This document shows, piece after piece, positions 30,690 to 63,537 of a stretch of 64,000 nt of DNA (the stretch's first letter is position 1; each line of letters opens with the position of its first letter). Made by a program: the position numbers and the translations under genes. The notes under the pieces were generated by a model. The model was given only the letters and a program-made list of their open reading frames with translations. It ran no database searches and had not been told where the DNA came from. The stretch comes from Amphiura filiformis. Taxonomy: Eukaryota; Echinodermata; Ophiuroidea; Amphilepidida; Amphiuridae. The stretch spans positions 49,861,281 through 49,925,280 of the forward strand of contig NC_092644.1 in the NCBI RefSeq assembly GCF_039555335.1, written 5' to 3'.

Positions 30690-31912
30690 TGAATTTAAAA
30701 AAATGAAAAATATTTGATATCAGAAAGACATGCTTCGTATTCAGAATGCAATTCTCGGTATTCGCAATAAGGGCGCCGCCAGCGGTTTGCGATGTAATCG
30801 TGATGTATCATGGGAAAAGGTCGACATCCAAGTCCGCGTAATACGAATATTACCATGCTATTACATAGGAACACGTGACAACATTTTTTTAGTTTGTCAA
30901 TATAACGGTGTTACACGCGAATCGATACTCAATAATACTTAATAATGTGATTTGAAATGTGCACAATTAATTTTTTCTCTATCGATTTGCGTGTAATACC
31001 GTTATTGGCAAACTAAAAAATATTATCACGTGTTCCTATGTAAAAGCATGGTAATATTCGTATTGCGCGGACTTGGATGTCGACCTTTTCCCATGATACA
31101 TCACGAATACATCGCAAACCGCTGGCGGCGCCCTTATTGCGAATACCGAGAATTCGATATGTCTGAGGTGCTCTCATGTCCCACAAAAAATACTGTCGAA
31201 ACGCCATAAACGCTCATTCTAGATCCCTTAAGCGAAGGGTATGAACGTTTGGACAGTATTTATTGTGGGACATTAGAGCACATCAGACATATCGAATTGC
31301 ATTCTGAATACGAAGAATGTCCTTCTGATATCAAATAATTTTGATTTTTTGAAATTCGCAACGAGGTTACGTAATACATTTTATGGCAAATCATTAAAAA
31401 TTTACATTTTTGATATTTAACAGTACTCGAAGTAAACTTTATAAATCTGATGATTTATACTTAAAGTGTATGTAGGTGGGATGCAAAGCCGACGATCAAT
31501 TGAAAATTTTGACCTTTCGTATTGAAGATATGGATTTTTTTCCCAAAACACCCAACAAAATTAGGTCTTTTGGGGAAAAATCCATATCTTCAATATGAAA
31601 GGTCAAAATTTTCAATTGATCATCGGCTTTTCCTCCTAGCTATATACATAGACTTTAAGAATATATCATTAGATTTATAAAATTTACTTCGAGGACTGTT
31701 ATATATCAAAAATTTGACAAATCAAATTTTAATAATTTGTCATAAAATTTATATTATATCGTGAATTTCAAAAAATGAAAATTATTTGATATCAGAATTA
31801 TCTGAATGCATCGTATTCAGAATGCAATTCGATACGTCTGAGGTGCTCTCATGTCCCACAAAAAATACTGTCGAAACGCTCAAAACGCTCATTCCAGATC
31901 CCTTAAAGCATT
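30690..31912. mobile_element. Compound copy of foldback family F1 with a nested insertion
   Basis: Two inverted arms (about 31210-31550 and 31570-31905) pair around a centre near 31558 (TTTTGGG/CCCAAAA). A further arm to the left (30705-30753 plus 31151-31205) is interrupted by the 397-bp MITE at 30754. All three arms share CAATTCGATA and TTTGATATCAGAA. Confidence 0.85.
30754..31150. mobile_element. 397-bp MITE nested in family F1
   Basis: Near-perfect arms of about 180 bp begin CTCGGTATTCGCAATAAGGG and pair around 30950. AATT is duplicated at both borders (30750-30753, 31151-31154). Removing one AATT plus the insert restores the family F1 sequence GCAATTCGATATG, so ends and target duplication are certain. 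Confidence 0.95.
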
Positions 31913-32934: not shown

Positions 32935-33650
32935 GGGGTACCGTCAATCACGAAGTGCTCATTAAGAAGCTTATTAGCATTGGAGTGCAGGGCCGGGAGC
33001 TTGATTGGTTTTTATCGTACCTGAGTGATATCAAGTTACAAAAGTCAATGATCACCATTCTAATAAAGCCCCAGTTAAGTTTGGGGTTCCTCATGGCTCA
33101 ATCCTGGCCCCCTACTTTTTACTCTTTATATTAATGATCTTCCTGGCAACATAGAGTAGAAGCTCTAAAGTGTATCTTTATGCAGATGATACTGCTATTT
33201 TTGTTAAAGGGAAATCTATCGATGTAATCAATACAACTCTGAACACTGAACTTGCTCATGTTTCCCAGTGGTTACAATCCAATTATTTCACTCTTAATGT
33301 AAAAAAAAACCAAATCTATGTTAATTGGTACCCAACAAAGACTCAGTCGTACTTTAAAGCCAGCTTAATATTAGTATCAGGGGTGAACATTTTTGGCTTA
33401 ATCCATCGCTTTCATGGAGTTTCAACATTGACAAACTTGTGTCCAAAATTAATCAGCGCATCGGTCTTCTTAGAAGAGTACGTAACATCTTGCCAAAGGC
33501 TACCTTAAATATTTTATTTACGCTCGTAAGTCTTTAATTCTACCTCATTTTGATTATTGTGATGTTGTTTGGGGAAACGCTTGTACTACCCATCATGATC
33601 TTTCCAGGCTTGATAAACTGCACAATACTGCTGGGAAGGTCATACTTGCC
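32935..33650 (+). pseudogene. LINE reverse transcriptase fragment (5' part)
   Basis: With frameshifts the sequence reads V-N-H-E-V-L-I-K-K-L, then G-V-P-H-G-S-I-L-A-P, then I-N-D-L-P-G, then the catalytic box L-Y-A-D-D-T-A-I-F (about 33174). It continues with L-N-V-K-K and H-F-D-Y-C-D-V-V-W-G-N. These are RT motifs in order for a non-LTR retrotransposon. Stops and shifts show it is dead. It breaks off at about 33650. Confidence 0.85.
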
Positions 33651-33885: not shown

Positions 33886-34926
33886 ATTTTACGGTCCTAA
33901 ATTCGGTGACGGTTCGCTATCTCTAAGGACCGCTATCTCTAAGGTTCGCTATCTCTAAGGTTCGTTATCACTAATTACGAAAAAGGTCCACTATACCTAA
34001 GGTTCGATATCACTAATTTTGAAAAAGGTTCGGCATTTCTAAGGTTCGATATCACTAATTTTAAATAAGGTTCGCTATCTCTAATTTTAAATAAGGTCCG
34101 CTATCACTAATTTATTGAAGTTTCGCTATCTCTAAGGTTCGCTATCACTAATTTAAAATAAGGTCCGCTATCTCTAATTTTAACAATCCCGGTATCCCTA
34201 AGGTTCGCTATATCTAATTTTAAATAAGGTCCGCTATCTCTAAGGTTCGCTATCTCTAATTTTAAATAAGGTTCACTATCTCTAATTTTAAATAAGGTTC
34301 GCTATCTCTAATTTCAAATGAGGTTCGCTATAGCGGTCCTTATTTAAAATTAGAGATGGCGGACCTTATTTGAAATTAGAGATAGCGGACCTTATTTAAA
34401 ATTAGAGATAGTGGACCTTATTTGAGATTAGTGATAACGAACCTTAGGTATAGCGAACCTTAATCGAAATTAGTGATAGCGAACCTTAGAGATAGCGAAC
34501 CTTGATTAATTAGGGATAGCGAACCTTAAACAAAATTAGTGATAGCGAACCTTAGGTATAGCGGACCTTTATTGCAATTAGTGATAGTGAACCTTAGAGA
34601 TAGCGAACCTTCAATAAATTAGTGATAGCGGACCTTATTCAAAATTAGTGATAGCGAACCTTATTTTAAATTAGTGATAGCGAACCTTATTTTAAATTAG
34701 TGATATCGAACCTTAGAACTAGCGAACCTTATTCTAAATTAGTGATATCGAACCTTAGAAGTAGCGGACCTTTTTAGGTATAGCGAACCCTTTTCTCTAT
34801 TAGAGATAGCGGGATTCTGATCTCCATAGACTTTACACGTTAGTGATAGCGAACCTTAGAGATAGCGAACCTTAGAGATACCGGACCTTAGAGATAGCGG
34901 GATGTCACCCTAAATTCACGGTAAAT
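33886..34926. repeat. Inverted satellite based on GGTTCGCTATCNCTAA
   Basis: From 33910 to 34329 the word GGTTCGCTATC(T/A)CTAA and variants (GGTCCGC..) repeat in plus orientation, with spacers such as TTTTAAATAA. From 34330 to 34905 the same word repeats in minus orientation (TTAGAGATAGCGAACC). The switch is at GCTATAGC. Flanks TTACGG..CCTAAATTC are also mirrored. The whole could fold into a hairpin of about 1 kb. Confidence 0.95.
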
Positions 34927-44055: not shown

Positions 44056-44424
44056 TTAAGGGGGTACTACACCCCTGCCCAATTTTGTGCCTATTTTTGC
44101 ATTTTTCTCAAAAATTATAGCGCATTCGGCATTGGGGACAAGTAAGATATGTATATTATAGGGGCAGGGACTACAACTACTGCACTGGAAATTTTATTTC
44201 AGCACAGACAACAGCTGTGCAGTTACAGTCAAAAATGAGGGAAAACCAATATTTGATCAATAAATCAATAACTACTTACCTTGAGTTGCTTAATTTTCAG
44301 TGCAGTATAGTTGTAGTCCTTGCCCCTATAATATACATATCTTACTTGTCACCAATGCGCTATAATTTTTGAGAAAATGGCAAAAATAGGCCCAAAATTG
44401 GCCAGGGGTGTAGTACCCCCTTAA
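44056..44424. mobile_element. TTAA-flanked foldback MITE, copy 1
   Basis: TTAAGGGGGTACTACACCCC at the left and its inverse at the right (GGGGTGTAGTACCCCCTTAA), with arms of over 100 bp. TTAA at both borders suggests a piggyBac-like insertion preference. The inner parts carry GCACAGACAACAGCTGTGC. Confidence 0.88.
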
Positions 44425-45255: not shown

Positions 45256-45294
45256 ATGCAGCTGAAGCATATGAAGACATTGCTAACGCCTCAG
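45256..45294 (+). CDS. IFT172: IFT172 coding exon 1
   Basis: 13 codons, [13 protein letters not shown], then donor GTACGTGT in phase 0. This matches the conserved IFT172 start (M-x-L-K-H-x-K-T-L-L-x-P-Q). The ATG is in context CACCATGC. Confidence 0.92.
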
Positions 45295-47908
45295 GTACGT
45301 GTATAGTCAGTGTTAGTTCTATGAAAACGGTCGCCCTAAAAAGCATCTCGAGTCATGTGTTGTCACGGACGCTCTCAACTTGCTCGAGAACTCTACTGCT
45401 CTAGCTTCGAATTTGCACACGATAGTTACGCATTCGATGCTAGAGTACTTTACTATGGTTTTTCGGTCGGACAGCGGTGCAATTTTTAACACCGGAGGTT
45501 ATTTATTCTGTTAATGTTGAAATTTGAATGAAAGTTATTTCGATGAGTCAACTGTATCTTTTGAGCAAGATTTGCGTATTTTGTAGGTAACCTAGGCAAA
45601 CCTTAGTTAACACATTTACTAGTCAGCGAATTCGCCGAGACCGGGGCCCCAACACAATGCATATTTACATAGAAATTTGAATTTTTTTCGAGAATAGGTG
45701 GGTGAAGGAAACCTACATAAATATGTTTTCTATACTTCACTTGACCCAAATATATGATTTTTATGGTGATAATCAAGTCGCATTATGGAATTTTAGAGGA
45801 TTTTGATAGCAGTTCCATTAAAAAAAGCTGCCATCGCCATGAGACTAAGATCTAGAAACACCCCGAAATGCCGTTTTGGGGAATTTTGCTAGCTGAATCT
45901 TTTTGATGAAAGTCAATCTTTGACAAGATGTAACTTTGCTACGGAAAGTGCTATGAAAAAAAGGTTTTCAGTTTTGGCTTAGTTTACTCAAGGGCTTTAA
46001 TTTGATATATAAAACGATGCAATTTGATGGCAAATTTGAATTCACCTAGGATACCTATATTTTGGACTGTCAAAAATTTTGCTAAGTGTAATTTTAGCAA
46101 CATTTTTGATGCAATAGGGTATATTGCTGATCCATTAATTATCCTTTTCTGGTGCATTGTGGGATTGAAAAGGGCGCAAATCGATCGCTAATTTGCTCCC
46201 TTTTCTATCCCACAATGCACCAGAAAAGGATAATTAATGGATCAGCAATATACCCTATCGCCTGTCGTGATCGGCTGTGTTTACTTCTGACCTTCCATTG
46301 CTTTACACGGTGTCATGCTTCAGCGGATCCGACTAGATTTTGAATGCAAAGGTCTCTAGCCTAGAATGTGAAGCTATCGGTGAGCAAATTCTTGGCTAGA
46401 GTTCTCGAGCAACTCTCAACATGTCATCTGTCAGTGTCATCATGTTTGACTTTTAAGCTTACATGATGTACTATACTAAATTCATACACTCCTATATCAA
46501 AGCAGCCAATCAGAAAAGCTGTTAGAAAAGTACGAAACATGCATTGATTGTGTATATTGTGCACTCCGCGTACTACGCGCAGTGTTTCGCGCGCGTTCGC
46601 GTCTCTTAGGATTGATTCATTTTTCGAGCGGTTTGATGCATTTATATTTGGTTCTGTTTTCCAACATTTTTAGTGATTATTTGTTATATAAAAAAAGTAA
46701 AAATCATGCGTGTTTTTCTTCTCGTGTATGAAATAGATTAATGAACTTGTATTACTTTTTGAGAGAAATTAGACAAAATAATGCACTTGCGCTGATGTTA
46801 ATGCGTCTAATGCACTCCCCCCTTCGGGGCTCGTGCATTAAACGCATCAACATCAGCGCGCGGGCATTATTTTGTCTAATTTCTCTCCCAAAAAGTAATA
46901 TGCGTTCATTAACCTATAAATGCAGTAAACCTTTGACGAGCGTGTATTGTAAGGATACGTCGCGTATTTACTGCGTTGCACGCACTTGTCTCTGATTGGC
47001 TGCTAAGGCTATCTGTTGTTGCTGAGTGGAAATTTATGAATGAACTGTGCGCCGTACACATTAATGTTTAATCGAGAAATCTATCTACTATCCACAACGA
47101 CACGATGGTTACTGTGTGGATAGAAGATAGAGATTGCTATAATATTTACAGTAATTTCTTGGCCAAACTGGAACATACGCGTTGCGTCCATGTAGCGTAC
47201 TAAGCGTGTACGCAATGTAAGGCGCGTGTATGCTTTGTTCTGTACCACGCTAACGCTATATTCGCGTGTGTTTATCGCGGAGCCACTAGCGTTTATAGTG
47301 TTCCAGTTTGGCCAAGAAATTACCTGGTACTGTAAATATTATAGTATAACACGGTCAGTCATCGTAGCATCTTCAGTTTTAAAACGCATCCAAACAATTT
47401 TTTAGATTGTCCAATTTGGCTTCAATTTAGCTTGGCTAACATTTATGTATCTCAGGCGCTGAAGTACAAATTCCGACCATATATTGAGTCTGTTTAATTC
47501 TGCAACCTTGCTTGATCAATAGTTGTTTTGACAACTGCCAACTGCGTCGGTGATTAAAGATTTGAGAAAATCCAGTGCTGGGCAAATCAATCCATCTCCC
47601 GATTTGCAAAGGTTGACTTGTCCTTGCAAAATGATGGTGATACCCTTCCGGTTCTTGAACATGTGAGCCCAGCACTACATGTGTTGATCACCTATTTACA
47701 ATGGGGACTGTGTGATGTCTGGCGATCACTCGAGAAAAATACAAAACATTCAAACCTGACTCGTAGTCTATTATTATTATAATGCCATCCTTTCATATTA
47801 TAATAAAGTAGTCTTCGTAAGATAATCCCTTCAAGAGGTGAGCTCTTACAGGAAGTTTTAAAGGACTGCCGACTCGACGATTTACCGTTATATTAAATAT
47901 TAATTAAT

Positions 47909-49049: not shown

Positions 49050-52000
49050 TTAGTTTATTTATTAGTTTATTTATTTATTTATTTAAATCAGTTAAATTTG
49101 TTTTTAATTGGGGCTTGTATTGTATGATTATTTTTGGTATTTGATATTAGTTATATTACCATTATTATTTATTCTTATTATCAATATTTAGGCTGGCTTT
49201 ATAGGCCTATTATATGCTCCACTCCAGGGCTGATATTCATAAAACCACGCTAGGCCTAGTTGACAGCTAAAATTGACTTTAGCAAGCTGCTAAGCCTAGC
49301 TGATTGCTAATTCTTATTCATAAAACCCAGTTAGAGTTAGCAACATTCTAAAATTTTGCCAAAACTTAGAGTTGATCTGGGGCAGCGCTAAGTCACTAGT
49401 TGACAACTAGTCTTAATGATTTTGAACTAAGTTTGACATGATTTATTGTTTTAATTTCATATTAACTGTTGTCAATTATGAAAAATAATGTTCTCAGAAT
49501 ATTCTGTTTCTGAGGTCTTCAGTGTGTTTTACACATAAGAAACTGTCTTAAAAACACACAACAAATTTAGGGTGAATGAATAAACATTGAACTAAGCCAG
49601 TATTGTTTAACCAAATTTGCACAAGAAAAATGATTATGATATAGCAAGTAATCTTTAGTTAAGCAGATATGTTCAATCGAAGCAATTCTGTTCAATTGTT
49701 TGATACGTAAAATATATATTTTGGAGACATGTTACCAATGTTCTCTTTGGTAAAGATGCATGACTTATTTTCAATAACAAATTATATGTCAATTTGATAA
49801 AGATAAATCATGCTTGGCTTTTGTCAGGACAACAAGCAAGATATATCATATGCTATTAAATTATCTAATATTATTTACACAGTGTTGCTCATGAAGCTAA
49901 ATGAGCAGCGTTAAGTGGATGCATGTTGTTTTCTATTTGATGAAGCAATATAGTATGTATAGTATGTTTTTACAACAAACCAAGGACTTAACATGTATAT
50001 GAACTTTACTTGTTCAGAGTATCTTTTTAATTTAATTTGCCGTAACAACCTTGTAGGCCTATATAGCTTACAAAATACACATGTAATTTTATTAACGAAA
50101 TCTCAATGAAGACCATCAGCAATGAGTCATTACATTTTGATCATTTTGACTGTGGTTCAGAGCTCAAGTATAATAGACATGTATTATATAAGCCTATTGT
50201 ATTAGATGTTACACAACTGTTGAAGGCCATATCACCCAAAACACCCAAATAAGTTATCAGCTAAATATTTCTAGTTGATAGCTAGTTAGCAAAGTGTTTA
50301 GCAAGGTTTTATGAATAAGAAATTAGTTGATTGCTACGTAGCTATCAACTAGTGGATTTAGCATCTTGCTAAGCACTAGTTGGTTGCTAATTTAGCAAGG
50401 CTTTATGAATATCGGCCCAGTACTCTACAATGTTTATTTAATCTTTGTTTGTTTCGTTTATTTGCTTATTAATTTTTATTTATGTATGTACTGGTATTTC
50501 AATCTAACTGAATCTTAATCTAACTGTATTTATTTATTCATTTAGAAATAAATAATTTCATTTATTAATTTATTTAAAAGTATTTATTTATTTACTCCTT
50601 GTAGCCTTGTTACTTATACTTGTACTTGAAACTTCTAGTCTTACTACTTGTTGAAAAACAATTTGTCAGAGACGATCAATGGGTATTGATTTATGGACAA
50701 GTCAATTGACACACGATCAGTGGCGATCGTGTCATCGAGGAAAAGTTAATCCCACTTAACAATAGGCTACGAGTCAGGTTTGAACGTTTTGTAGAAAAAT
50801 TGACACAAAATGACGTTTTTCGTGAGTAACGTCATGGTGAATTGATGAAAGAATATAGCACATGTGTCACTAATATGTCAATAACAATTATCCTCATATT
50901 TTTGAGACAATAATTAACTTGAGGAAGAAGTTTTTATTCATATGCATGACATTGGGCCCTGGATGGCAACCGTGTGTGCCAAACAAGGTACGGTACGTTA
51001 CATGAGTACGTATACTTCCACGTTCTAACTTTCGTATCACAAGCTATCGGTTGTTCATACGAAAGTTAGAAATTTTTGAACAAGTTAATGTTAGCGCCGA
51101 ATTTGCAACATCACGGTAGTCGCGCTCGTCAAAGGTTTGACCGTTTGCTGCATTTGACTATAAAGTTAATTTTTTATTACTTCCGTGGTCCGGGTATGCA
51201 TTGGTGAATTGCGATCGCGTAGAAGTGACAAGGTCGCCTACTACGCGCCGCGCCGAAGACCAATGGGGTTAACTGACTTGTTATCAAGTGCGTTGTTGAT
51301 CAGCCAATCAGCTTCCTTCCTTCCTTCCTTCCTTCCTTCCTTATACGTGCTTACCTCAAATGGTTGAGTATCAACGCACTGGCTTTACGTGCACAGTTTA
51401 CCTATGCACGATCCTGGAACCTAGGATTGATTGCAGATATCAGAACCGGGATGGTCCCCCTTCTCTTTTCAAATAGCTCTGACACTTAACGTGCACAGGG
51501 TTTGACTCTTCCTGTACACGGGACCAACGGCTTTACGTGACTTCCTAATCACGGACAAAGCACATACACTACCTAAATCTGCACGTGCTAGGCAGTGTAT
51601 GGGAGCGAGAAGAAATTCTTCAATTAAATTCTGAAATTAAATTACTGAACCTAATTGAAGGATTCCCGACCATATAGGAACTTTTTAGGAGGGAAGAGAA
51701 TTTTCACCTATGGCAAGCCCAAGGCTCGAACCCTCGTCGATCGTATCTCCCGGCCGGCAGCGCAATGCCTTAACCACTCGGCCATCTCGCCGTTAATGTT
51801 TATTTCTTCTGTGTGCATGCTCGTCTACGCTAATACAGATCTGTATATCAATTATGTATAGGATAATGGCCAAGGATTAGAACGTGAGTGGGTAAGAATG
51901 GCTGAGCGCGGAGCGGCGAAGCCATTCTACCCACTCACGTTCTAATCCGCGCCATTAACCGACTTAATACACACCTATGACGTCGCGCTATTGTTTTACC

Positions 52001-55000
52001 GCTCCATTATTTTTCACGAATGGAGTGTTATTGAAATAGGTTGCTCTTTACAAATTGATCAATTACTCATTGATGCCGGACAATACACTAATATAATGAT
52101 CATACTAAATTTTAGGTGCGAGTGCAAAAATAGTCCGACTCAGCTTTATGTAAAATTTCTATAGAAATACCCATCATATCACGATCCAGGTGTTTAGTTC
52201 AAATCATCCGTAACCACCTTCTTGAATTATAAAGATTTAAAATGTTTGTTACACAAATTGAATAAACATAGATTAAGTAAAATCATTAAAGTGATTAGAC
52301 CATCAATAGTTCTTTATGCCCACTTCTAATGTATTAACTGTTGAAGTAGTTGCGTTTAGGTCTCTATTTTGCATAATAAGGAAAATTGGCAAAAAGGTCA
52401 TATAGCATGTATAGGCTCATATGAAATGGTCATTACAGTTTTCAACCTCAAGAAAACTACACCTATCGCTATACCTGAGCAATGATACTCTTCTCTGTGA
52501 ATCGAGTTTACGATTTTGGAACAACCATGCAATTATGGACACTATTGTTTATCTTGGATAATTTTGTGATGGAATCATTCCGAGGATATCAACGATATCT
52601 GCTGCGAATCAACGATATATCGTTGATTCGCAGCAGAAGGACCAAAATCAGGAAAATTTTAAATGTACTACAACACATTTTACCTAGGCCTATTATTGTC
52701 CTTGAACTTTGTCGGCAAAAAACAAAACAAACTTCGCCGCCTTCGACGCGAAATAAAAGCCACCTCAACTTCCAGTCCCCTTCCGAAATCAAATGGAGCG
52801 TCCCTTACATTGTAATATTTAATTACCGTAAAATGGGGGTAACTTCGGTAAGCGGGTAACTTTGGTCGTTCAAATATATTTTTAAATGGTCATATTTCCA
52901 TTACAGCAATATTGTTTTTAGTCATATTTGGTCTCAATTTGTTAAGAAATATATTTGGAAGAAGTCGCTCATGTCCAATTTCTTTGAAAGTTACGAAAAT
53001 ATTGGCATTTTTGACCAAAAATGAGCATTTTTTTTTTTTCAGACAAAATAAAAATCGATATTTGTGAGCAAGGATGCGTGCTTGCTTAATTTTGCATGGG
53101 GACAAATGTCACAAAAAACAAAACCTTGCCCATATACAGCGAAGATCAATTTTTTTCATTTTCTTTTCTTCATGGAATGTAATACTCTGACCAAAGTTGC
53201 CCCAAATGCGGGGTAACTTTGGTCAGGCTATTTTCAACCCCTAGGGCACCCTTTCAAAATTATTCAAAAATCTTTTTCAACTTCAAGGTGTAGAAGGGAA
53301 CCATAACGTCATAAAAAAGAGATAATTAGAAATATATTTGGTTTTGTTTGGAAGCAGTGCATGTTTAAAAACTCTGAAAAGTGCCCAAAGTTACCCGTTT
53401 TACGGTATCGGATAGGCCTACTGATCGATGTAAGTAAATATTCAAGCATGCCAAAATACCATCAGATGAAACATCAGATATACTAATGACAAATAAAAAT
53501 TATACAGAAAATAGACCTACTGTGGCTTTTATCATTATTAAACATGCCCGAAGAGAACGATTTGAAAATAAACAGATTCATAGGCCTAAATACATTGATA
53601 CAGAATGTGTATTATGTATATGTAGCAATGTTGCCCAAAATATGACAAATTATATGTAGGGCCTAAGCCACTGAAAACGTATAAAAATATAAAGAAGGAA
53701 AAAAATGTTATAAAAACAGTAAGCGTAGAAAGAAAGGTCCAAATAAATAAAAGTAAAGGCCTACGTAAGTAAAGCCTAAGTGAGGGTAAAACACATCTTG
53801 CATAATAAGTACAACGTACTTAGCCAACAATTTAACCTGCCCGTTTTGATCTTGACTTGCTTTTCACAGATTGCATTGTAAGGGCTCGGATAGCGACGTT
53901 TTACGTATTTTGTTTGTGGCACCTAAGAGCAAATCAGACACATCCTTCTGATATCAAATAATTTAGATTTTTATTAAATTCGCGATACAATACACATTTT
54001 AAGGCAAATTATTAAAATTGATATTTTGAAATTTAACAGTCCTCAAAGTAAATTGTATAAATCTAACGATATACAGTAAATAGTAGGAAGTTGGGTTGAA
54101 CAGCCGTCAATCATATGAAAATTGTGACCTTCATTATTAAAGATATAAATTTTTTCCTCAAAACACTAAAAATGTAGGTCTTTTGGAAACAAATGTTTAA
54201 GTTCTATATGAAAGGTCAAATTTTCAATTGAGTCGGCTTTTCATGCCAGCTACATAGGCCTATAGTTTAATCATTAGATTTATAAAGTTTACTTCGAGGA
54301 CTGTTAAATTTGGAAAAATATAAAAAAAATATGAAATTTTAATAATTTGTATTATATCGCGAATTTCACAAAATCAAAATTATTATTATTATTAGATATA
54401 GGGACAATCCTCGTATTCAGCATGCAATTCGATATGTCTGATGTGCTCTCAGGTCCCATGACAATACTGTGCACATGTTGCTATCCGCTTCCTCAATTTA
54501 TTGTATTAATGAAAATCATTTTCTTCTTGTTTTTCGTATCATTGTTTTGCATGAATGAAGTGATGATAACAATACCGCACTTTTCGCAAATACTTGCTTT
54601 TCAAAAGTGCAATTGATATTAACACTACATTCGTAAATGCCAGTACTTTTTCCCTGAAAAGTATTTGCTTTTCAGAGAAAAGAGAAAGGCATTTACGAAT
54701 GGCGTGTTATTGTGATCATCGCTCCATTCGTGGAAAATAATGGAGCGGTAAAACAATAGCGCGACGTCATAGGTGTGTATTAATATGATATAATGTAGGT
54801 ATGACAGGGAAACCTCAGTTAACACATTTGCTAGTCAGCCAAAATGGCCTAAACCGGCAATACAAATTTACATTGAAATTTAAAAGAACCGCTTGCTCAA
54901 GGAAACCTTCATAAATATGTTGTCTATACTTCACTATTATATAAACCATCTCCATACAAACAAGGTAATATAAAAGTTCTCCAGAGAGTCAGTACAAAAT

Positions 55001-58000
55001 GTGTAAACGTAAATACAGTCAGATTGTCATCACTTTTTTCTACATCTTACCGCATTCCCACACAAATGTTGATTTAAGAGGGTCACCCGAGTGTTGGAAA
55101 GCTACCTGCACTATGGATGTAAATTTTTTTGTCTAAATGAGTTAAAAAACGATGAAAATCTCACCATCTCTCGACAAACACCTACGTGAATTGATTATTT
55201 ATGTCAGCATGTTGACTTCCCATCATGCATCATATTGACCTTGGGCTATTCATAACTTTGTGGCGCTCGTGGCTATTTGTCACGAACTACAATATCATTA
55301 CACTTCAGTAAATCGCTCTCAGCGCTATGTCTCATTTATATTCAGTTGCAATATTTAAGGGGGTACTACACCCCTGCCCAATTTTGTGCCTATTTTTGCA
55401 TTTTTCTCAAAAATTATAGCACATTGGTGACAAGTAAGGTATGTATATTAAAGGGGCAAGGACTACGACTATTGTACTAAAAATTCAGCAACTCAAAGCA
55501 AGTAGTTATTGATTTATTGATCAAATATTGGTTTTCCCTCATTTTTTACTGTAACTCCGCAACTGTTGTCTGTGCTGAAACAAAATTTCCAGTGTAGTAG
55601 TTGTAGTACTTGCCCTTAGTATAATATACATATCTTACTTGTCCCCAATGCGCTATATTTTTTGAGAAAAATGCAAAAATGGGCACAAAATTGGGCAGGG
55701 GTGTAGTACCCCCTTAAACACGACAGGTTGTTTCTATATGAAATAATATAATTTGTCTACAGTATATGTTTATTTTTATTCCTTTTAGTGAATGCACTTA
55801 TATGATAATGTAGATCTAGTTTTCTTAGTCGTATTGATATTATGGGTTCTTAGCGGTTAGCCTCTTTCCCGGGGGGATCACTCACATAAATGGTCTGTAC
55901 GCATGCGTGACCAAAAAAACAAGTAAAAAGGGGTGTTATTTTTAGGCAAGGCAAGTTACACGCGTGACGCATTTAGGGTCTAAAAAACACTGATTTTCAA
56001 GAATAAGGGTAGTTTTCTGAAACTGGACAACTTGTTTGGGGTACCTTTTCAAATTTTTGGTAAATTATGAGTCCAAAAAGTGTACATTTGTTGTATTTTC
56101 ACCAGCCAAAAACTCATTAGGGGGTAAATTCTATATTAAATTACCTTATTAAGGGGCTAAATTTGCTGGTAGGGTAAAACTCGTTTAGGGGGTGTTTGAA
56201 AAAAATTTGGTCACGCATGCGTACACTGTCATATTTGAGTGGCCCCCCCCCCCCCGGGGCCTCTTTCGCGTCATTTAATTCGTTTTTATTGGCTACCCGG
56301 ACTTGGCTAGCGGGATTTATGAACTGTTAAGAACGACTACGACTCAAGAATAAAACAGGTCACAGGTCATTGTAGTTCCGGCGTAAAATCATGTGCGAAT
56401 AATGTAAACATGGCTTCTTGAGCTAGTTAAGCTGTGTTTGTCGGAAATTCTTTTCATTTTTTCTCCTGTTTACTTAATGCATACTTACTACCAAATGATT
56501 AAGACTGCTCCCTAATATGTTGTGACAACATTAAAGCAAAACGAATGAGCGTAAGTATTGTCTGAGGTTAGATATTAGTGAGGTAAGCATGTATCAAAAC
56601 AACCAATTCAAAACTCGTATTCATGTATTTTTAATGTACATGCGTGTGTGAGTAAGGATTGTGAGGGACCACGGCTCCACCCTGTGATTTATTTACCTCA
56701 ACAATCATAACTCAAGAAATTTACATGGTATGTGCAAAGTTAAGGTACCATTTTAAAGAGCTCATCAATAGCTTTAATTTAATATGTATTTTACCTATGT
56801 AGAGTATCATGATGTGAACTAAAATTGAATAAGAACGTAAAAAATCTTGCGCCAATGTCACGGCTCCAGGCTATCAGTGTACCAGTTCAAAACACATGGC
56901 CATGACTGTATACTATACTACACATGTACTAATTTTTTAGTATGCATGCATGCATACATACTAAATAAGTAAGTTATTCCTGTCAGTCTCGGAGTCATGG
57001 GAGTGTTGTTAAATTACATGGCGATCTTTTCTTTTTAGACATAAAATTACAAATTTATCAATAACGCTCGCATCATGGTTAAACATGTTTTTAGCTGAAC
57101 AAACATACCTTTTTTGTCAAACAAGCTTTATTTTGTTCCAAAATCCATGTTTTTATCGCAATTTTTAACGTAAAGGAGCTGAATGTAAAATTGGTGATAC
57201 ACAGTGTATTTTAATTTTTTTTTTTTCCCTGCAATGAATCAGGTCTTAATACTCCATTGGTGAGCGACGGGCGATTGGTATTTCACGGAACGCAAGAAAA
57301 GGAGTCCTGTCTGATGGCTATAAACTGATCGCTAGATGATCGCTCTGTGGTATTCTCTTAGCCTGAGTCGCTTGGCCTATCTCGAACAAAATCGTCATTC
57401 GTAGCTATTGAAAAACAAGTGGATTCGCCGTACTATCACAACAATTGTTGACACAAAGATATAGGGATGATGACACTGTGTGATGCCAACTCAAAAACTT
57501 TCGCTTTGCATGTATGCTCGTTTTGAAAATCTCCAAAAATCTGTGAGGGCGTGGAACGATATACATGTTATTTATTTTACTTGTCCTAATGCAGCCACCA
57601 GATGAAAAACAAATTTAACCTTCCCCTGTATTGACCCCTTGACCTTATTGATTAGACCCCAAATCCAACTCAATTTTTTTCTGGGTCATAGAATCACTGC
57701 CCTAGAAAGACTACAAGGTATTTTAAAATGATAGTATTTTCATAGACCTATAATTTGTTTATAATATGAATTATGATGTGAATAATGGCAAACTGGCAAT
57801 TGCTGGCGACTATTAAAGGAAATGCAGTATTTCTTTAAACAGTCATACAGCACATTGTATATGGCTATCACAGTATCAAAATGCAACAGTTACCTTGACA
57901 AGCATATTCTATATAGAAAGGTCCCATTCCGCTTTAGGTTTACAGAAGCTGAATAGTTTTGAGACAAAGGATTTAATTAATATTCCTAAGTATGTTCCTT

Positions 58001-61000
58001 TGGACATTTTAATAAATTGAGTGTGCTTATTCATTTTAAAAAGTTATGCTAACATAAATTCATGAATTACAGTACTGGTACCTTCTTCTTCTTCTTCTAT
58101 GCTGATACTTGTCCAGGGTGCATTTATATATGGTCATTTTCACAGTAAAGGGTGTAACTTTTGATTTTTAGGGTCAAAATTTCAAACCACTTAAATATGT
58201 TTCTGTTTACTGTAATCATGCATAGAAGCAACTTAAATTCCAGTAAAATAGTGTTTCAAGGCTTAAACCTTTTGATTTCTGATAAAAAATTTGACATTTC
58301 CATAACATTTTGGTTAAAATCTAAGAAAAAATGTATTTTACATAAGCTCAGAAAATTATGACATGAAAGCTGGAATACACGTGAAATCCCATTCCAAAGT
58401 AAGTCAACAGATATAAGTTAAATTTTATACCATGTTTTGCTATGTTTGTAATTGCAATTTTGAAAATTTTTAACATCAAGGGTCATTTGCAATGGAAATT
58501 TCCCAACCTTAAACATATTTTTAAAGTTTTAATTGGGTTCCTAAAATAATTTAAATGTCTAACTTCATGTACAAATACTACTTGATGAAAGGAACCTCCC
58601 AGCCAAGTTTCACAGAAATTGGAGTTATTTTTTAGAATTGGCAATTCAAGCGATTTGTGTTTCGGAGGCTTCAGTTAACAACACAGGTGATCATAAAAGT
58701 AAAATATTTGGCTAACTACTACAAGTTGACATGAAAAATAGGTAAAAAATATCACAATTACCAATTTTCATGCTTTGCTTCTAAGTATTGAATTTCAGTT
58801 GTGACAAAAATTAAATTATCACAGCAAGTCATTTTTTTTGTTTCGGAGGCTTCATGTTTACAATGGTTAAACATGGCAGAAGTAGTTTTTTTTTAAACAA
58901 CACTGTTGGGATCATCTAAGCTGTTATTTTCTTGTGTGTATTGAATCAATGATTCTATGCGGCAGATATTGCAGATTTATAACATGATAATTTTTTCACC
59001 CATTTGTTAAGTATGGTGTTATTTGCATGTGAAGCCTCCGAAACGGGCTTTCTTGGATATCAGTATATTTTTCAAGCATTAACCATAATATCAATTTTTT
59101 TTAAAATTATGACATTCTGCACATATCATGCAACAATTACAATGCAGATATCAATATGGAACATACCAATTTAGATATGCATAGATGATAATTAAGTTTA
59201 CTGTTGTTTCGGAGGCTTCATTTGTTTCGGAGGCTTCAATTGTTAACGGAAAGTTTGTATTGGGTCCCATTTTCAAACGGTGATATATATCTCCATGATT
59301 TAAAAACAAGTGACTTGAGGATCTACTTTGCTACATTTTGATCAATAGATTGGATGAGCTCTTTTATTTATATTTGCCCAAGCTTGCTGAACAGTTTGTT
59401 TCGGAGGCTTCAAAAAAGTTAACGGAAAATCGGCTCTTTGAAGTCAAGATTTTATAAAAATTTTTAAAGCTTGCAAATCAACTAATTTTTGTTACCCATT
59501 TCAAGTTAAGATATCAACTGTTATGAATCAAGAAGAAGTGAAGAAATAACCAAGAATTATGAACCAAAGCTATACCCACAAAGTTTGTTAACAATTGTTA
59601 ACGGAAAATGAAGCCTCCGAAGCGACAAATATCAAGTCCGGTTCTCAAAAATACAGGGCTGTTCACAATTAAATCTAATGTGGCAGTGTTTACTGAACAT
59701 ATGACCGTACTTTCAGGATAAGAAAAATTATCCATGAACTAACTGAAGAAAACACAGGGTTTTACAAAAATGTTACTGTTTTTTACAGTTTTTCAAAATG
59801 GCAATATTAGGTACATTTAAGCCTACTAAAACTAAACGCAGTAACTCCCGAAGATGATTATGCTACCCAAGGTAGCTGCTAACTAGATGACTTATGTGGC
59901 CAAAAATCATGGAATTCTGTGGCTTTATTAGAAAACTACGGATCAAAATGTTAAAAATCCAAAGTTACACCCTTTACCGTGAAAATGACCATATAAATTA
60001 TCGTGTATTGTAGGGTCAAGTTGATAGATTATTTGTACATGTAATACTCTAAAATGACATTATTATTTATTTGTCACAGGATGGGGCAGCAAAGATTACA
60101 GCTCTAGCCTGGGCACCAAACAATACCAAACTTGCAGTGTGCACTGTAGAGAGAGTTATTCTATTGTATGATGAGCATGGGGAACGCAGGGACAAGTTTT
60201 CTACTAAACCTATTGATTCAAAGGTAAGAATACCCAGCCTGAGTCATAGCATAGCCATACACTATGAGCTTGGTGAACGCAGGGACAAGTTTTCTAATAA
60301 ACCTATTGATTCAAAGGTAAGAATACCCAGCCTGATGAGTCATAGCATAGCCATACATTATGAGCATGGTGAACACAGGGACAAGTTTTCTACTAAACCT
60401 ATTGATTCAAAGGTAAGAATATACAGCCTGAGTCATAGCATAGCCATACACTATGAGCTTGGTGAATGCAGGGACAAGTTTTCTACTAAACCTATTGATT
60501 CAAAGGTAAGAATACCCAGCCTGAGTCATAGCATAGCCATACACTATGAGCTTGGTGAACGCAGGGACAAGTTTTCTACTAAACCTATTGATTCAAAGGT
60601 AAGAATATCCAGCCTGAATCATAGCATAGCCATACACTATGAGCTTGGTGAATGCAGGGACAAGTTTTCTACTAAACCTATTGATTCAAAGGTAAGAATA
60701 CCCAGCCTGAGTCATAGCATAGCCATACACTATGAGCTTGGTGAACGTAGGGACAAGTTTTCTACTAAACCTATTGATTCAAAGGTAAGAATACCCAGCC
60801 TGATGAGTCATAGCATAGCCATACATTATGAGCATGGTGAACACAGGGACAAGTTTTCTACTAAACCTATTGATTCAAAGGTAAGAATATACAGCCTGAG
60901 TCATAGCATAGCCATACACTATGAGCTTGGTGAATGCAGGGACAAGTTTTCTACTAAACCTATTGATTCAAAGGTAAGAATACCCAGCCTGAGTCATAGC

Positions 61001-63537
61001 ATAGCCATACACTATGAGCTTGGTGAACGCAGGGACAAGTTTTCTACTAAACCTATTGATTCAAAGGTAAGAATATCCAGCCTGAATCATAGCATAGCCA
61101 TACACTACTGAGCTTGGTGAACTTGAGGGACAAGTTTTCTACTAAACCTATTGATTCAAAGGTAAGAATACCCAGCCTGAGTCATAGCATAGCCATACAC
61201 TATGAGCTTGGTGAACGCAGGGACAAGTTTTCTACTAAACCTATTGATTCAAAGGTAAGAATATCCAGCCTGAATCATAGCATAGCCATACACTATGAGC
61301 TTGGTGAACACAGGGACAAGTTTTCTACTAAACCTATTGATTCAAAGGTAAGAATACCCAGCCTGAGTCATAGCATAGCCATACACTATGAGCTTGGTGA
61401 ACACAGCGACAAGTTTTCTACTAAACCTATTGATTCAAAGGTAAGAATATCCAGCCTGAGTCATAACATAGCCATACACTATCTATGAGCTTGGTGAACG
61501 TAGGGACAAGTTTTCTACTAAACCTATTGATTCAAAGGTAAGAATATACAGCCTGAGTCATAGCATAGCCATACACTATGAGCTTGGTGAACGCAGGGAC
61601 AAGTTTTCTACTAAACCTATTGATTCAAAGGTAAGAATATCCAGCCTGAATCATAGCATAGCCATACACTATGAGCTTGGTGAATGCAGGGACAAGTTTT
61701 CTACTAAACCTATTGATTCAAAGGTAAGAATATCCAGCCTGAGTCATAACATAGCCATACACTATCTATGAGCTTGGTGAACGTAGGGACAAGTTTTCTA
61801 CTAAACCTATTGATTCAAAGGTAAGAATACCCAGCCTGAGTCATAGCATAGCCATACACTATGAGCTTGGTGAACGCAGGGACAAGTTTTCTACTAAACC
61901 TATTGATTCAAAGGTAAGAATACCCAGCCTGAGTCATAGCATAGCCATACACTATGAGCTTGGTGAACACAGCGACAAGTTTTCTACTAAACCTATTGAT
62001 TCAAAGGTAAGAATAGCCAGCCTGAGTCATAGCATAGCCATACACTATGAGCATGGTGAACGCAGGGACAAGTTTTCTACTAAACCTATTGATTCAAAGG
62101 TAAGAATATCCAGCCTGAGTCATAGTATAGCCATACACTATGAGCTTGGTGAAGCATGAGGGACAAGTTTTCTACTAAACCTATTGATTCAAAGGTAAGA
62201 ATATCCAGCCTGAGTCATAGTATAGCCATACACTATGAGCATGGTGAACGTAGGGACAAGTTTTCTACTAAACCTATTGATTCAAAGGTAAGAATATCCA
62301 GCCTGAATCATAGCATAGCCATACACTATGAGCTTGGTGAACGCAGGGACAAGTTTTCTACTAAACCTATTGATTCAAAGGTAAGAATATCCAGCCTGAG
62401 TCATAGCATAGCCATACACTATGAGCATGGTGAACGCAGGGACAAGTTTTCTACTAAACCTATTGATTCAAAGGTAAGAATATCCAGCCTGAGTCATAGC
62501 ATAGCCATACACTATGAGCTTGGTGAATGCAGGGACAAGTTTTCTACTAAACAGAGACTGTCTTTTGCCATTTGCAGGAGAGCATTAAATAGCTCTTCTG
62601 GAGCCTTCAAGGAGAGCTGTTAAAAACATTTAAAATAGAATGTAAGGAGAGAATGGTCAACTAAGGAGAGTTCAAAATCACTCTCCCATATCAGATTTAA
62701 GGAGAGCAGTAGAGAGTGATTGCTCTTGCTCTCCTCAAAAGGCAGTCCCTGACTAAACCTATTGATTCAAAGGTAAGAATATCCAGCCTGAGTCATAGCA
62801 TAGCCATATATACTATGAGCTTGGTGAAGTTTTCTACTAAACCTATTGATTCAAAGGTAAGAATATCCAGCCTGAGTCATAGCATAGCCATACACTATGA
62901 GCTTGGTGAACGCAGGGACAAGTTTCTACTAAACCTATTGATTCAAAGGTAAGAATATCCAGCCTGAGTCATAGCATAGCCATACACTATGAGCTTGGTG
63001 AATGTAGGGACAAGTTTTCTACTAAACCTATTGATTCAAAGGTAAGAATATCCTGCCTGAGTCATAGTATAGCCATACACTATGAGCATGGTGAACGTAG
63101 GGACAAGTTTTCTACTAAACCTATTGATTCAAAGGTAAGAATAGCCAGCCTGAGTCATAGCATAGCCATACACTATGAGCTTGGTGAACGTAGGGACAAG
63201 TTTCTACTAAACCTATTGATTCAAAGGTAAGAATTAGAGTTATTCTATTGTATAATGACCATAGAGTTTGCTCTGCGGACATTACATCCCCTTAAAATGA
63301 ATTGATTTAATGAATTAAAGTGAATGGTCACATATTAGATTTTTCATGTTTCGCGATTGAAAATTGAAAAATCAAAACCTTGACCTTGACATTGATCATG
63401 TCTTTTGTTCTATTATATATGCAGTATGGGAAGAAGAGTTACACAGTGAAAGCACTAGCATTCTCACCGGATTCAACTAAGATAGCAGTGGGACAAACGG
63501 ACAACATTATCTATGTCTATAAGATTGGGGATGATTG
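45256..63537 (+). CDS. IFT172: IFT172, intraflagellar transport protein 172 (5' three coding exons)
   Basis: Coding exons at 45256-45294, 60080-60223 and 63425-63537 join in frame (phases 0, 0, 2) to give about 98 residues of the IFT172 N-terminus. They contain the start of its first WD40 propeller: [46 protein letters not shown] and [13 protein letters not shown]172 is a roughly 1,750-residue peripheral IFT-B subunit that moves along ciliary axonemes and is needed to build cilia. Its N-terminal propellers and C-terminal TPR-like solenoid bind IFT partners and membranes. The rest of the gene continues beyond 64000. Intron 1 (14.8 kb) is filled with transposable elements, and intron 2 (3.2 kb) is almost entirely a tandem array of exon 2 end copies. 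The coding exons themselves look intact. Confidence 0.94.
45598..45742. repeat. Dispersed repeat shared with 54808-54937
   Basis: Common marks are GTTAACACATTTACTAGTCAG (one substitution), TTTACATAGAAATTT-like sequence, and AAATATGTTTTCTATACTTCAC. It lies within IFT172 intron 1. Confidence 0.7.
46114..46258. repeat. Near-perfect 145-bp palindrome
   Basis: Arms ATAGGGTATATTGCTGATCC onward, with GGTGCATTGTGGGAT further in, pair over about 65 bp around CAAATCGATCGCTAATTTG. Extreme arm identity suggests a recent foldback or palindromic duplication. Confidence 0.9.
46739..46911. repeat. 173-bp foldback with GC loop
   Basis: TAATGAAC ... ATTACTTTTTGAGAGAAATT is mirrored by AATTTCTCTCCCAAAAAGTAAT ... 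GTTCATTA. The centre is a CCCCCTTCGGGG mini-hairpin. Arms are about 80 bp with few mismatches. Confidence 0.88.
47137..47345. mobile_element. Short TIR element
   Basis: CTATAATATTTACAGTA and ATTTCTTGGCCAAACTGGAA at the left are inverted at the right (TTCCAGTTTGGCCAAGAAAT, then TACTGTAAATATTATAG). Internal sequence is CG-rich (TACGCGTTGCGTCC) and unlike the flanks. Confidence 0.75.
47941..49002. mobile_element. 1.06-kb TIR element inside a (TTTA)n microsatellite
   Basis: Left GGCCACGCGTTTTGAACTCG and right CGAGTTCAAAACACACAGCC are inverted, with CCACCC extending the match. (TTTA)n runs to the left border and resumes right after the right border, so the insertion split the microsatellite. Inside are a (GGCGGT)-like run at about 48170-48198 and CACCCTGTA words. 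No transposase seen. Confidence 0.8.
49227..50418. mobile_element. 1.19-kb TIR element with ATATTCATAAA ends
   Basis: GGGCTGATATTCATAAAACC at the left and GGCTTTATGAATATCGGCCC at the right are inverted. Subterminal regions on both sides are packed with TAGCAA, TTAGCA and TAGTTG words in both orientations (GCTAAGCACTAGTTGGTTGC and similar). No ORF of interest. Confidence 0.8.
50795..51310. other. No gene seen
   Basis: Intronic. Contains a GAAAGTTAGAA/TTCTAACTTTC inverted pair (about 51023-51070). Nothing else recognised. Confidence 0.4.
51311..51342. repeat. (CTTC)n/(TTCC)n microsatellite
   Basis: About eight TTCC repeats directly before the SINE at 51363. Confidence 0.95.
51363..51797 (-). 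mobile_element. tRNA-derived SINE, minus strand
   Basis: The minus strand reads GGCGAGATGGCCGAGTGGTT (A box TGGCCGAGTGG) and GAGGGTTCGAGCC (B box) about 50 nt later. The spacing with a long variable arm resembles tRNA-Ser or tRNA-Leu. The body includes CACGTAAAGCCGTTGGTCCC and is related to the 38297 SINE (GGACGTTAAGC). Confidence 0.8.
51875..51947. repeat. 73-bp hairpin
   Basis: GATTAGAACGTGAGTGGGTA is mirrored by TACCCACTCACGTTCTAATC, with AGAATGGCT/AGCCATTCT inside and a GC-rich centre. Confidence 0.9.
52599..52636. repeat. Perfect 38-bp palindrome
   Basis: CTGCTGCGAATCAACGATA followed immediately by its exact inverse. There is no spacer and no mismatch. Confidence 0.97.
52824..53407. 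mobile_element. 584-bp TIR element with GGTAACTTTGGTC motifs
   Basis: TACCGTAAAATGGGGGTAAC at the left and GTTACCCGTTTTACGGTA at the right are inverted. The motif GGTAACTTTGGTC occurs near both ends and again at about 53210. TA at both edges is part of the TIR or a TA duplication. Confidence 0.8.
53881..54475. mobile_element. Full foldback family F1 copy
   Basis: The left arm (CTTCTGATATCAAATAATTT at about 53945) and the right arm (ending AATTCGATATGTCTGATGTG at about 54446) mirror each other around about 54170 (AAAGATATAAATTTTTTCC). Diverged from the 30690 copy. Confidence 0.8.
55355..55717. mobile_element. TTAA-flanked foldback MITE, copy 2
   Basis: Same ends as 44056-44424 (TTAAGGGGGTACTACACCCC), but the internal sequence is inverted relative to copy 1 (CAGCAACTCAAAGCAAGTAG against CTACTTACCTTGAGTTGC). 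TTAA is at both borders. Confidence 0.88.
55868..56258. mobile_element. hAT-like MITE with 8-bp duplication
   Basis: Ends CCCGGGGGGATCACTCA and the inverse of CCCGGGGG..GGCCACTCA, with GTACGCATGCGTGACCAAA mirrored inside. GCCTCTTT flanks both sides (55860-55867, 56259-56266). The poly-C run at the right end is expanded. Confidence 0.85.
56267..58126. other. IFT172 intron 1, no recognised element
   Basis: No supported exon or repeat family. Short features only: an ATGCATGCATGC-like run at about 56941 and a (CTT)n run at 58083-58097. Confidence 0.4.
58127..59995. mobile_element. 1.87-kb TIR element with repeated GTTTCGGAGGCTTCA motif
   Basis: TATATGGTCATTTTCACAGT (continuing AAAGGGTGTAACTTT) at the left is inverted at the right. 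Inside, the 15-mer GTTTCGGAGGCTTCA occurs at 58659, 58840, 59206, 59224 and 59398, and in reverse at 59030 and (one variant) 59609. GTTAACGGAAA occurs several times beside it (59242, about 59418, about 59597). No ORF of note. Confidence 0.85.
60080..60223 (+). CDS. IFT172: IFT172 coding exon 2
   Basis: 144 nt, phase 0-0. Acceptor TTTGTCACAG, donor AAG/GTAAGA. It encodes [11 protein letters not shown] ... [21 protein letters not shown], the first WD40 repeat of IFT172. Its last 50 nt and the donor are the seed of the array that follows. Confidence 0.95.
60174..63232 (+). repeat. Exon-derived 93-bp tandem array, about 31 copies, each with a splice donor
   Basis: Each unit holds the end of IFT172 exon 2 (GGACAAGTTTTCTACTAAAC ... 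GATTCAAAG), the donor GTAAGAAT and about 45 nt of intron (CCAGCCTGAGTCATAGCATA). The period is 93 bp, 96 in units with an extra ATG. All copies are in plus orientation and very similar. The frame stays open from exon 2 through the first ten units to TGA at 61109. Variant positions (GAGCTT/GAGCAT, CCCAGC/TCCAGC/TACAGC) recur in blocks, suggesting multi-unit duplications. After the last unit, TTAGAGTTATTCTATTGTAT matches exon 2 sequence near 60152, so the original duplication began upstream of the repeated core. These are probably intronic and not separate exons. Confidence 0.97.
62552..62751. mobile_element. 200-bp TIR insertion inside the array
   Basis: CAGAGACTGTCTTTTG at the left and CAAAAGGCAGTCCCTG at the right are inverted. 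ACTAAA is repeated on both sides (62546-62551, 62752-62757). The interior has several AGGAGAG words. It is a small hAT-like (CAGRG end) non-autonomous element that broke one array unit. Confidence 0.75.
63425..63537 (+). CDS. IFT172: IFT172 coding exon 3
   Basis: 113 nt, phase 0 in and phase 2 out. Acceptor TATATGCAG, donor GTAAGTGT. It encodes [20 protein letters not shown], then [13 protein letters not shown], the next WD40 repeat. It joins exon 2 exactly where IFT172 orthologues continue (S-K/Y-G-K-K-S-Y). Confidence 0.95.

Follow-up and report, generated by a model that had tools for sequence, protein, structure and literature searches.

Intron 2 of the IFT172 gene in the brittle star Amphiura filiformis contains a head-to-tail array of a 93-bp unit in which the end of exon 2, its 5' splice site and the beginning of the intron are repeated together, and in which 31 identical donors lie upstream of a single good acceptor at 63424. 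Both of these features, a roughly 31-fold repeat of the exon-intron junction inside the intron and near-identical donors facing one acceptor, had been proposed by a first-pass annotation and were confirmed by our analysis of the window, by which we mean the whole 64-kb stretch of DNA. We consider it likely that the array is a young minisatellite derived from an exon-intron junction by expansion and that it is tolerated by the gene, with exon definition settling on the first donor and the later donors being of minor importance.

The array and its setting in IFT172

IFT172 is a cilium-building protein and its gene is needed for cilia. The gene name given by the first-pass annotation is well founded, in that the peptide of the joined exons 2 and 3 has the IFT172 chain 8bd7_S as its best PDB match (E 3.4e-26), compared with E 6.1e-16 for the runner-up among the best 60 matches listed, a generic WD40 protein. 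The window covers exons 1-3 of the gene, and the N-terminal WD40 peptide resembles IFT172 more closely than it does other WD40 proteins. When spliced at donor 1 the peptide aligns with 8bd7_S over residues 4-84, with one gap of a single residue near the junction and no repeat inserted. Exon 1 was sought with a loose peptide pattern in the three + frames of the window, and the one fitting match was selected by its donor, its phase and its likeness to the N-terminus of IFT172; we take its peptide to resemble the N-terminus of the animal protein. A narrow pattern applied to positions 50000-60080 gave four matches, none of which fitted. With the exons placed as in Table 1, the lengths of introns 1 and 2 come to 14,785 and 3,201 nt.

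Table 1. Features of the IFT172 locus and its array (positions within the window)
Feature	Position	Strand	Remarks
IFT172 exon 1, coding part	45256..45294	+	followed by donor GTACGT; picked from 5 loose-pattern matches
IFT172 exon 2	60080..60223	+	144 nt; ends in the genuine donor (donor 1)
IFT172 exon 3	63425..63537	+	113 nt; acceptor AG at 63423-63424; GTAAGT at 63538
Extra copies, units 2-31 (n=30)	60224..63226	+	93-bp unit; each ends in AAAG, then GTAAGA
Units 2-10	60224..61066	+	stop-free, in frame with exon 2; 31-32 aa per unit if donors 2-10 were used
Block duplication	60224..61161	+	units 2-6 repeated as units 7-11
200-bp element	62552..62751		terminal inverted repeats matching at 14/16 bases; ACTAAA on both sides
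Second exon-2 piece, 27 nt	63236..63262	+	25/27 identical to 60152-60178; shortly past donor 31

The 93-bp array was reported by TRF as two stretches, 60171-62552 (25.4 copies, 94% matches) and 62752-63234 (5.3 copies, 93% matches), and its overall span, 60171 to 63234, lies within intron 2 and the end of exon 2. The donor string CAAAGGTAAGAA occurs 31 times, first at 60219 and last at 63222, with donors identical in all 31 instances. Within the 64-kb window, the + strand has the 9-mer AAGGTAAGA 31 times as well, every time inside the array, and the - strand has it once; a scan of 60100-63400 for the donor string with one to three mismatches found no decayed donors. In the sequence as given, the array is genuine and well outside anything chance would produce; its copy number is one that we infer from the assembled sequence. 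The copy count of 31 put forward earlier is accurate as the total of donors, but this total includes the genuine donor of exon 2 and the number of extra copies is 30. Spacing from donor to donor is 93 nt in 20 of the 30 intervals; the others measure 96, 95, 97 and 92 nt (two of each), 84 nt (one, unit 27 being cut down to this length) and 299 nt (one, the interval with a 200-bp insertion in unit 26). Head-to-tail units in the range of about 10-100 bp, with many near-identical copies, are characteristic of minisatellites, and this term fits an array with a period of 93 and 31 donors better than "satellite," the label that had been attached to it.

Read from donor to donor, the unit starts with intron sequence, GTAAGAAT..., of about 40-41 nt and continues with exon sequence, ATGAGC...TTCAAAG, of 52-53 nt; the proposed unit length of 93 bp is correct, but the intron share is smaller than the 45 nt assigned to it. 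ATGAGC is common to the exon and the unit at the first junction and is the apparent breakpoint. When 29 of the 30 extra units were aligned (unit 26 was omitted because of its insertion), substitutions were found in 14 columns, in addition to several indels. Alignment had been suggested as a means of detecting block duplications and it did reveal one, in which units 3/8, 4/9 and 5/10 are identical pairs, units 2/7 differ in two columns and units 6/11 in five, which is the pattern expected from unequal exchange. Exon 2 itself has GGGGAA at a position where the aligned copies have GGTGAA and so has been kept distinct from them.

Two further features bear on the history of the array. The 200-bp element interrupts the exon-derived part of unit 26, and when it is subtracted the sequence of the unit continues normally; the insertion therefore postdates at least part of the array expansion. 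We found no further copy of the element in the window, just matches of 12-16 nt. The 3' edge of the array adjoins the second, 27-nt piece of exon 2, whose local score of 22 compares with a maximum of 14.5 over 500 shuffles of the tail, and because its counterpart in exon 2 lies mostly upstream of the repeated segment, this piece represents a separate and different duplication of the exon.

Other repeats and genes were recorded in the window. Close to the end of intron 1 of IFT172, CGGAGGCTTCA is present seven times (five on the + strand, two on the - strand) within 1 kb, at 58663-59619. A 146/291-bp satellite occupies 10967-17584, with several TRF arrays at 11192-17584, and the + strand of the window has 21 instances of GGGGTCAAAGGTCA, of which 20 fall within 10967-16985 and one is at 19447, while the - strand has none; in 10 of the 21 instances it extends to GGGGTCAAAGGTCATTAAGGGGTCA. 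We take this motif to resemble a nuclear-receptor DR1 half-site pair. The stretch at 33911-34899, about 1 kb long, consists of short repeats of the type AAGGTTCGCTATCTCTAA and switches strand near 34330, the two halves forming a large inverted repeat. Excluding this array at 33.9-34.8 kb, at least 10 stretches in the unfiltered parts of the window align with their own reverse complement over 103-674 columns (9171-9569, 18628-19287, 30750-31154, 31151-31298, 31242-31882, 44056-44424, 46111-46261, 46733-46917, 51861-51960 and 53957-54384), and these are probably foldback or inverted-repeat elements. A 372-codon open frame at 20724-21842 encodes a rhodopsin-family receptor (7tm_1, E 1.3e-30), and a weak reverse-transcriptase fragment lies at 33155-33508 (RVT_1, E 3.3e-06), its 27.4 bits being below the curated cut-off of 29.6.

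Reading frame and variation of the units

Ninety-three nucleotides make 31 codons, and in the frame of IFT172 the intron-derived part of the unit contains no stop. The exon length preceding each of donors 1-10 is a multiple of three and free of stops, these donors lying in an open frame of 352 codons (60053-61111), and at least three stops precede each of donors 11-31. Taken individually, 23 of the 30 extra units are open multiples of three, as is the 93-nt consensus; the seven that are not are units 11, 15, 18, 22, 26, 28 and 31. Is the open frame a sign that the repeats are translated? A unit that is a multiple of three with 13-14 open intron codons would come about by chance with a probability of about 0.12-0.14, and its openness is therefore no proof of coding use. 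We rejected it as such on this basis and also because seven units break the frame and synonymous changes are at the level of chance, with 4 of 18 substitution types (0.22) being synonymous vs. 60 of 279 possible ones (0.215), which in turn indicates that the repeat peptide is not conserved. As donors 2-10 are in frame and stop-free, a slip to any of them would nevertheless be mild as regards frame.

Structural and domain predictions were discounted as well. AlphaFold2 gave the read-through array a beta fold (mean pLDDT 78.0, pTM 0.84), and it also gave a beta fold (pLDDT 73.6, pTM 0.71) to one out-of-frame nonsense control in which stops were entered as residues. With this control nearly equal, and with a bias of the program toward confident folds on repeats described in PMC11795689, we assigned the predicted fold zero weight as coding evidence. 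A Pfam match to EndoS_helical (E 2.3e-13), obtained with the read-through array, is a sum over the repeats in which no stretch passes alone, and we did not accept it as a domain.

Across the 29 aligned extra units, without unit 26, the intron piece has 8 variable columns among its 41 and the exon piece has 6 among its 52 (Fisher p 0.38), and no selection on the exon-derived half was seen. None of the 12 donor columns is variable; the probability of this by chance is 0.12, which is not significant, and we did not accept donor conservation as an indication of function. There is a weak hint of uneven change in one of three such tests, in that the longest run with at most one variable column covers 42 of the 93 nt, a length reached by 2.7% of permutations, while two companion tests of uneven spread gave 8.1% and 8.6%. 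Judged by their sequences, the copies look young and unconstrained.

Donor choice and alternative readings

How might such an array have arisen, and how would a transcript bearing 31 equal donors be spliced? We envisage that a segment running from the end of exon 2 into the beginning of intron 2 underwent tandem duplication and that unequal exchange or slippage, together with block duplications, would have enlarged it into an intronic minisatellite of 30 extra copies, every one of which would have brought along an intact 5' splice site. Exon 2, which is 144 nt long and has a 14.8-kb intron before it and a 3.2-kb intron after it, would most likely be recognized by exon definition, whereby factors bound at its acceptor would pair with U1 at the nearest good donor, donor 1. 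The remaining 30 donors would then leave with intron 2 and the main mRNA would be normal. Minor transcripts may use later donors, of which donors 2-10 would add in-frame steps of 31-32 aa and donors 11-31 would lead to stops and probable decay.

The first-pass annotation had left it between the first donor winning by position and the formation of isoforms, and the former appears supported over the latter by published data on equal donors between long introns. Four points go beyond that annotation: the open 31-codon frame, a possible acceptor role of AG/GT, the short distance from donor 31 to the acceptor, and the tandem arrays of splice sites already described in UBC (PMC10809524). Where near-equal donors lie between long introns, the upstream donor is favored, and five exon-defined minigenes carrying two identical donors were all spliced solely at the upstream one (PMC9225289), although these data are human and concern pairs of donors, whereas the array here has 31. 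With a long intron on either side of exon 2, donor 1 would be the expected choice. If exon definition favors the first among equal donors in this way (PMC9225289), that would also be the reason the array is tolerated. The same source states that about 60% of all its human events, taken without a filter for equal strength, show a preference for the downstream donor, and that the switch to intron definition occurs at about 250 nt, below which the downstream donor is favored (PMC9225289). Donor 31 is 198 nt from the acceptor, inside the intron-definition range, so that the cross-exon and cross-intron rules are opposed in one transcript, and this proximity would favor the last donor and speak against the use of donor 1. 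SRSF1 can favor intron-proximal donors in other genes, a further point against donor 1, and hnRNP A1 can favor intron-distal ones (PMC5585400). On balance, the effect of the array on splicing is most likely small, with splicing mostly ignoring it.

An entirely different possibility is that AAAG/GTAAGA acts as acceptor and donor both, as in human UBC, with the units either removed stepwise or retained, each retained unit being a cassette exon of 93 nt and 31 codons. We think this unlikely. In stepwise removal, lariats would be of 93 nt or multiples thereof and the exon-2 junction would be restored at each step. The array does have tandem units with AG/GT at a fixed place, AAAG/GTAAGA being present at 31 of 31 sites, and any two of these sites when joined give the same junction again; the open multiples of three, in the consensus and in 23 extra units, are likewise what is found in dual-specific arrays. 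TACTAAAC, which we take to resemble a branch-point consensus, occurs 30 times in the array. Pyrimidines make up 60% of the 20 nt from -23 to -4, more than at 75% of the 207 other AGGT sites in the window, but less than the 65% and 70% at two genuine acceptors, and the AG-free run of 27 nt is short relative to the 52 and 86 nt at those acceptors. The acceptor side also looks weak in having AAAG, without a pyrimidine before the AG, and retention of a unit would shift or stop the frame in 7 of the 30 cases. Weighing these sequence characters, we would rate the acceptor side of the array sites as of middling quality. Still less likely, in our estimation, is an active ladder in which units would be excised or kept singly, yielding 93-nt lariats and IFT172 mRNAs that differ in their number of 31-aa repeats, and in which the array's own splicing-out would have permitted it to expand beside an essential coding exon.

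We give very little credence to regulated or noisy use of alternative donors as a source of real IFT172 isoforms, whose first beta-propeller would hold between one and nine repeats of 31 aa. Such isoforms would be compatible with donors 1-10 being in frame and stop-free, but this openness is weak evidence (chance about 0.12-0.13), seven units break the frame, the chance-level synonymous share argues for a peptide without conservation, and the pTM of the read-through model is nearly equaled by that of the out-of-frame control, an outcome of the kind that PMC11795689 warns of. The least probable reading to us, by a shade, is that mis-assembly inflated one or a few true copies, a scenario that is compatible with the other readings as far as the true copies are concerned. 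Tandem arrays are often mis-assembled in copy number, and exact block copies are present here; however, variation among the 29 aligned units, together with the 200-bp element inside the array, does not fit a simple stacking of reads. We retain the tolerated minisatellite, most likely spliced at donor 1, as our preferred reading.

Relation to known systems and significance

With intronic minisatellites and VNTRs, as they are generally known, the IFT172 array shares a unit of tens of bases, tandem arrangement, block duplications and near-identical copies, but its unit is unlike theirs in being an exon-intron junction with a full donor in each copy. A second point of comparison is human UBC, in which nine ubiquitin units are parted by dual-specific sites and yield an isoform ladder (PMC10809524). 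It is not unusual for splice sites to lie within tandem repeats, given a human count of 792 introns in 262 tandem repeats, with 77 a multiple of the unit (PMC10809524). Like UBC (and VCX3A), the IFT172 array has head-to-tail AG/GT units whose length is a multiple of three and which could be kept or removed without change of frame; however, the UBC units are whole coding ubiquitins with demonstrated splicing (PMC10809524), whereas the IFT172 unit is nearly half intron, with a putative role as acceptor, and the array lies in an intron that has its own acceptor outside the array, with 31 sites as opposed to nine units.

Tandem duplication of AGGT segments is also a described source of introns, including duplications across an intron-exon border, with the Rogers model, ATP2A1, the 24-bp repeats of fission yeast and the potato RdRp gene as examples (PMC4974935). 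The likeness lies in the tandem duplication of a segment with AGGT, which in potato RdRp crosses an intron-exon boundary too, but that is a single tandem duplication (PMC4974935) while IFT172 has 30 copies. Furthermore, in contrast to intron gain, what seems to have happened in IFT172 is the lengthening of an intron already present, with multiplication of its donor and no new intron needed; the location of the acceptor at 63424, outside the array, suggests that intron 2 was lengthened rather than newly gained. Among the open-licence PMC papers listed by our searches, none concerned, by its title or the start of its abstract, an exon-intron junction amplified inside an intron, and the matches listed from the same collection made no mention of IFT172, which says little. 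Within that scope, splice sites in tandem repeats and tandem AGGT duplication are known, and amplification of a junction to 31 intact intronic donors is apparently new.

The locus is a natural experiment in which 31 equal donors lie between one upstream and one downstream acceptor, and in which the first-donor rule acting across the exon is set against the last-donor rule acting across 198 nt of intron, within one transcript. Variants among the units would help to identify the donor that is used. The array indicates that a minisatellite can originate at the edge of a coding exon while the exon itself is preserved, and it is a possible intermediate on the route by which tandem duplication leads to altered intron-exon structure.
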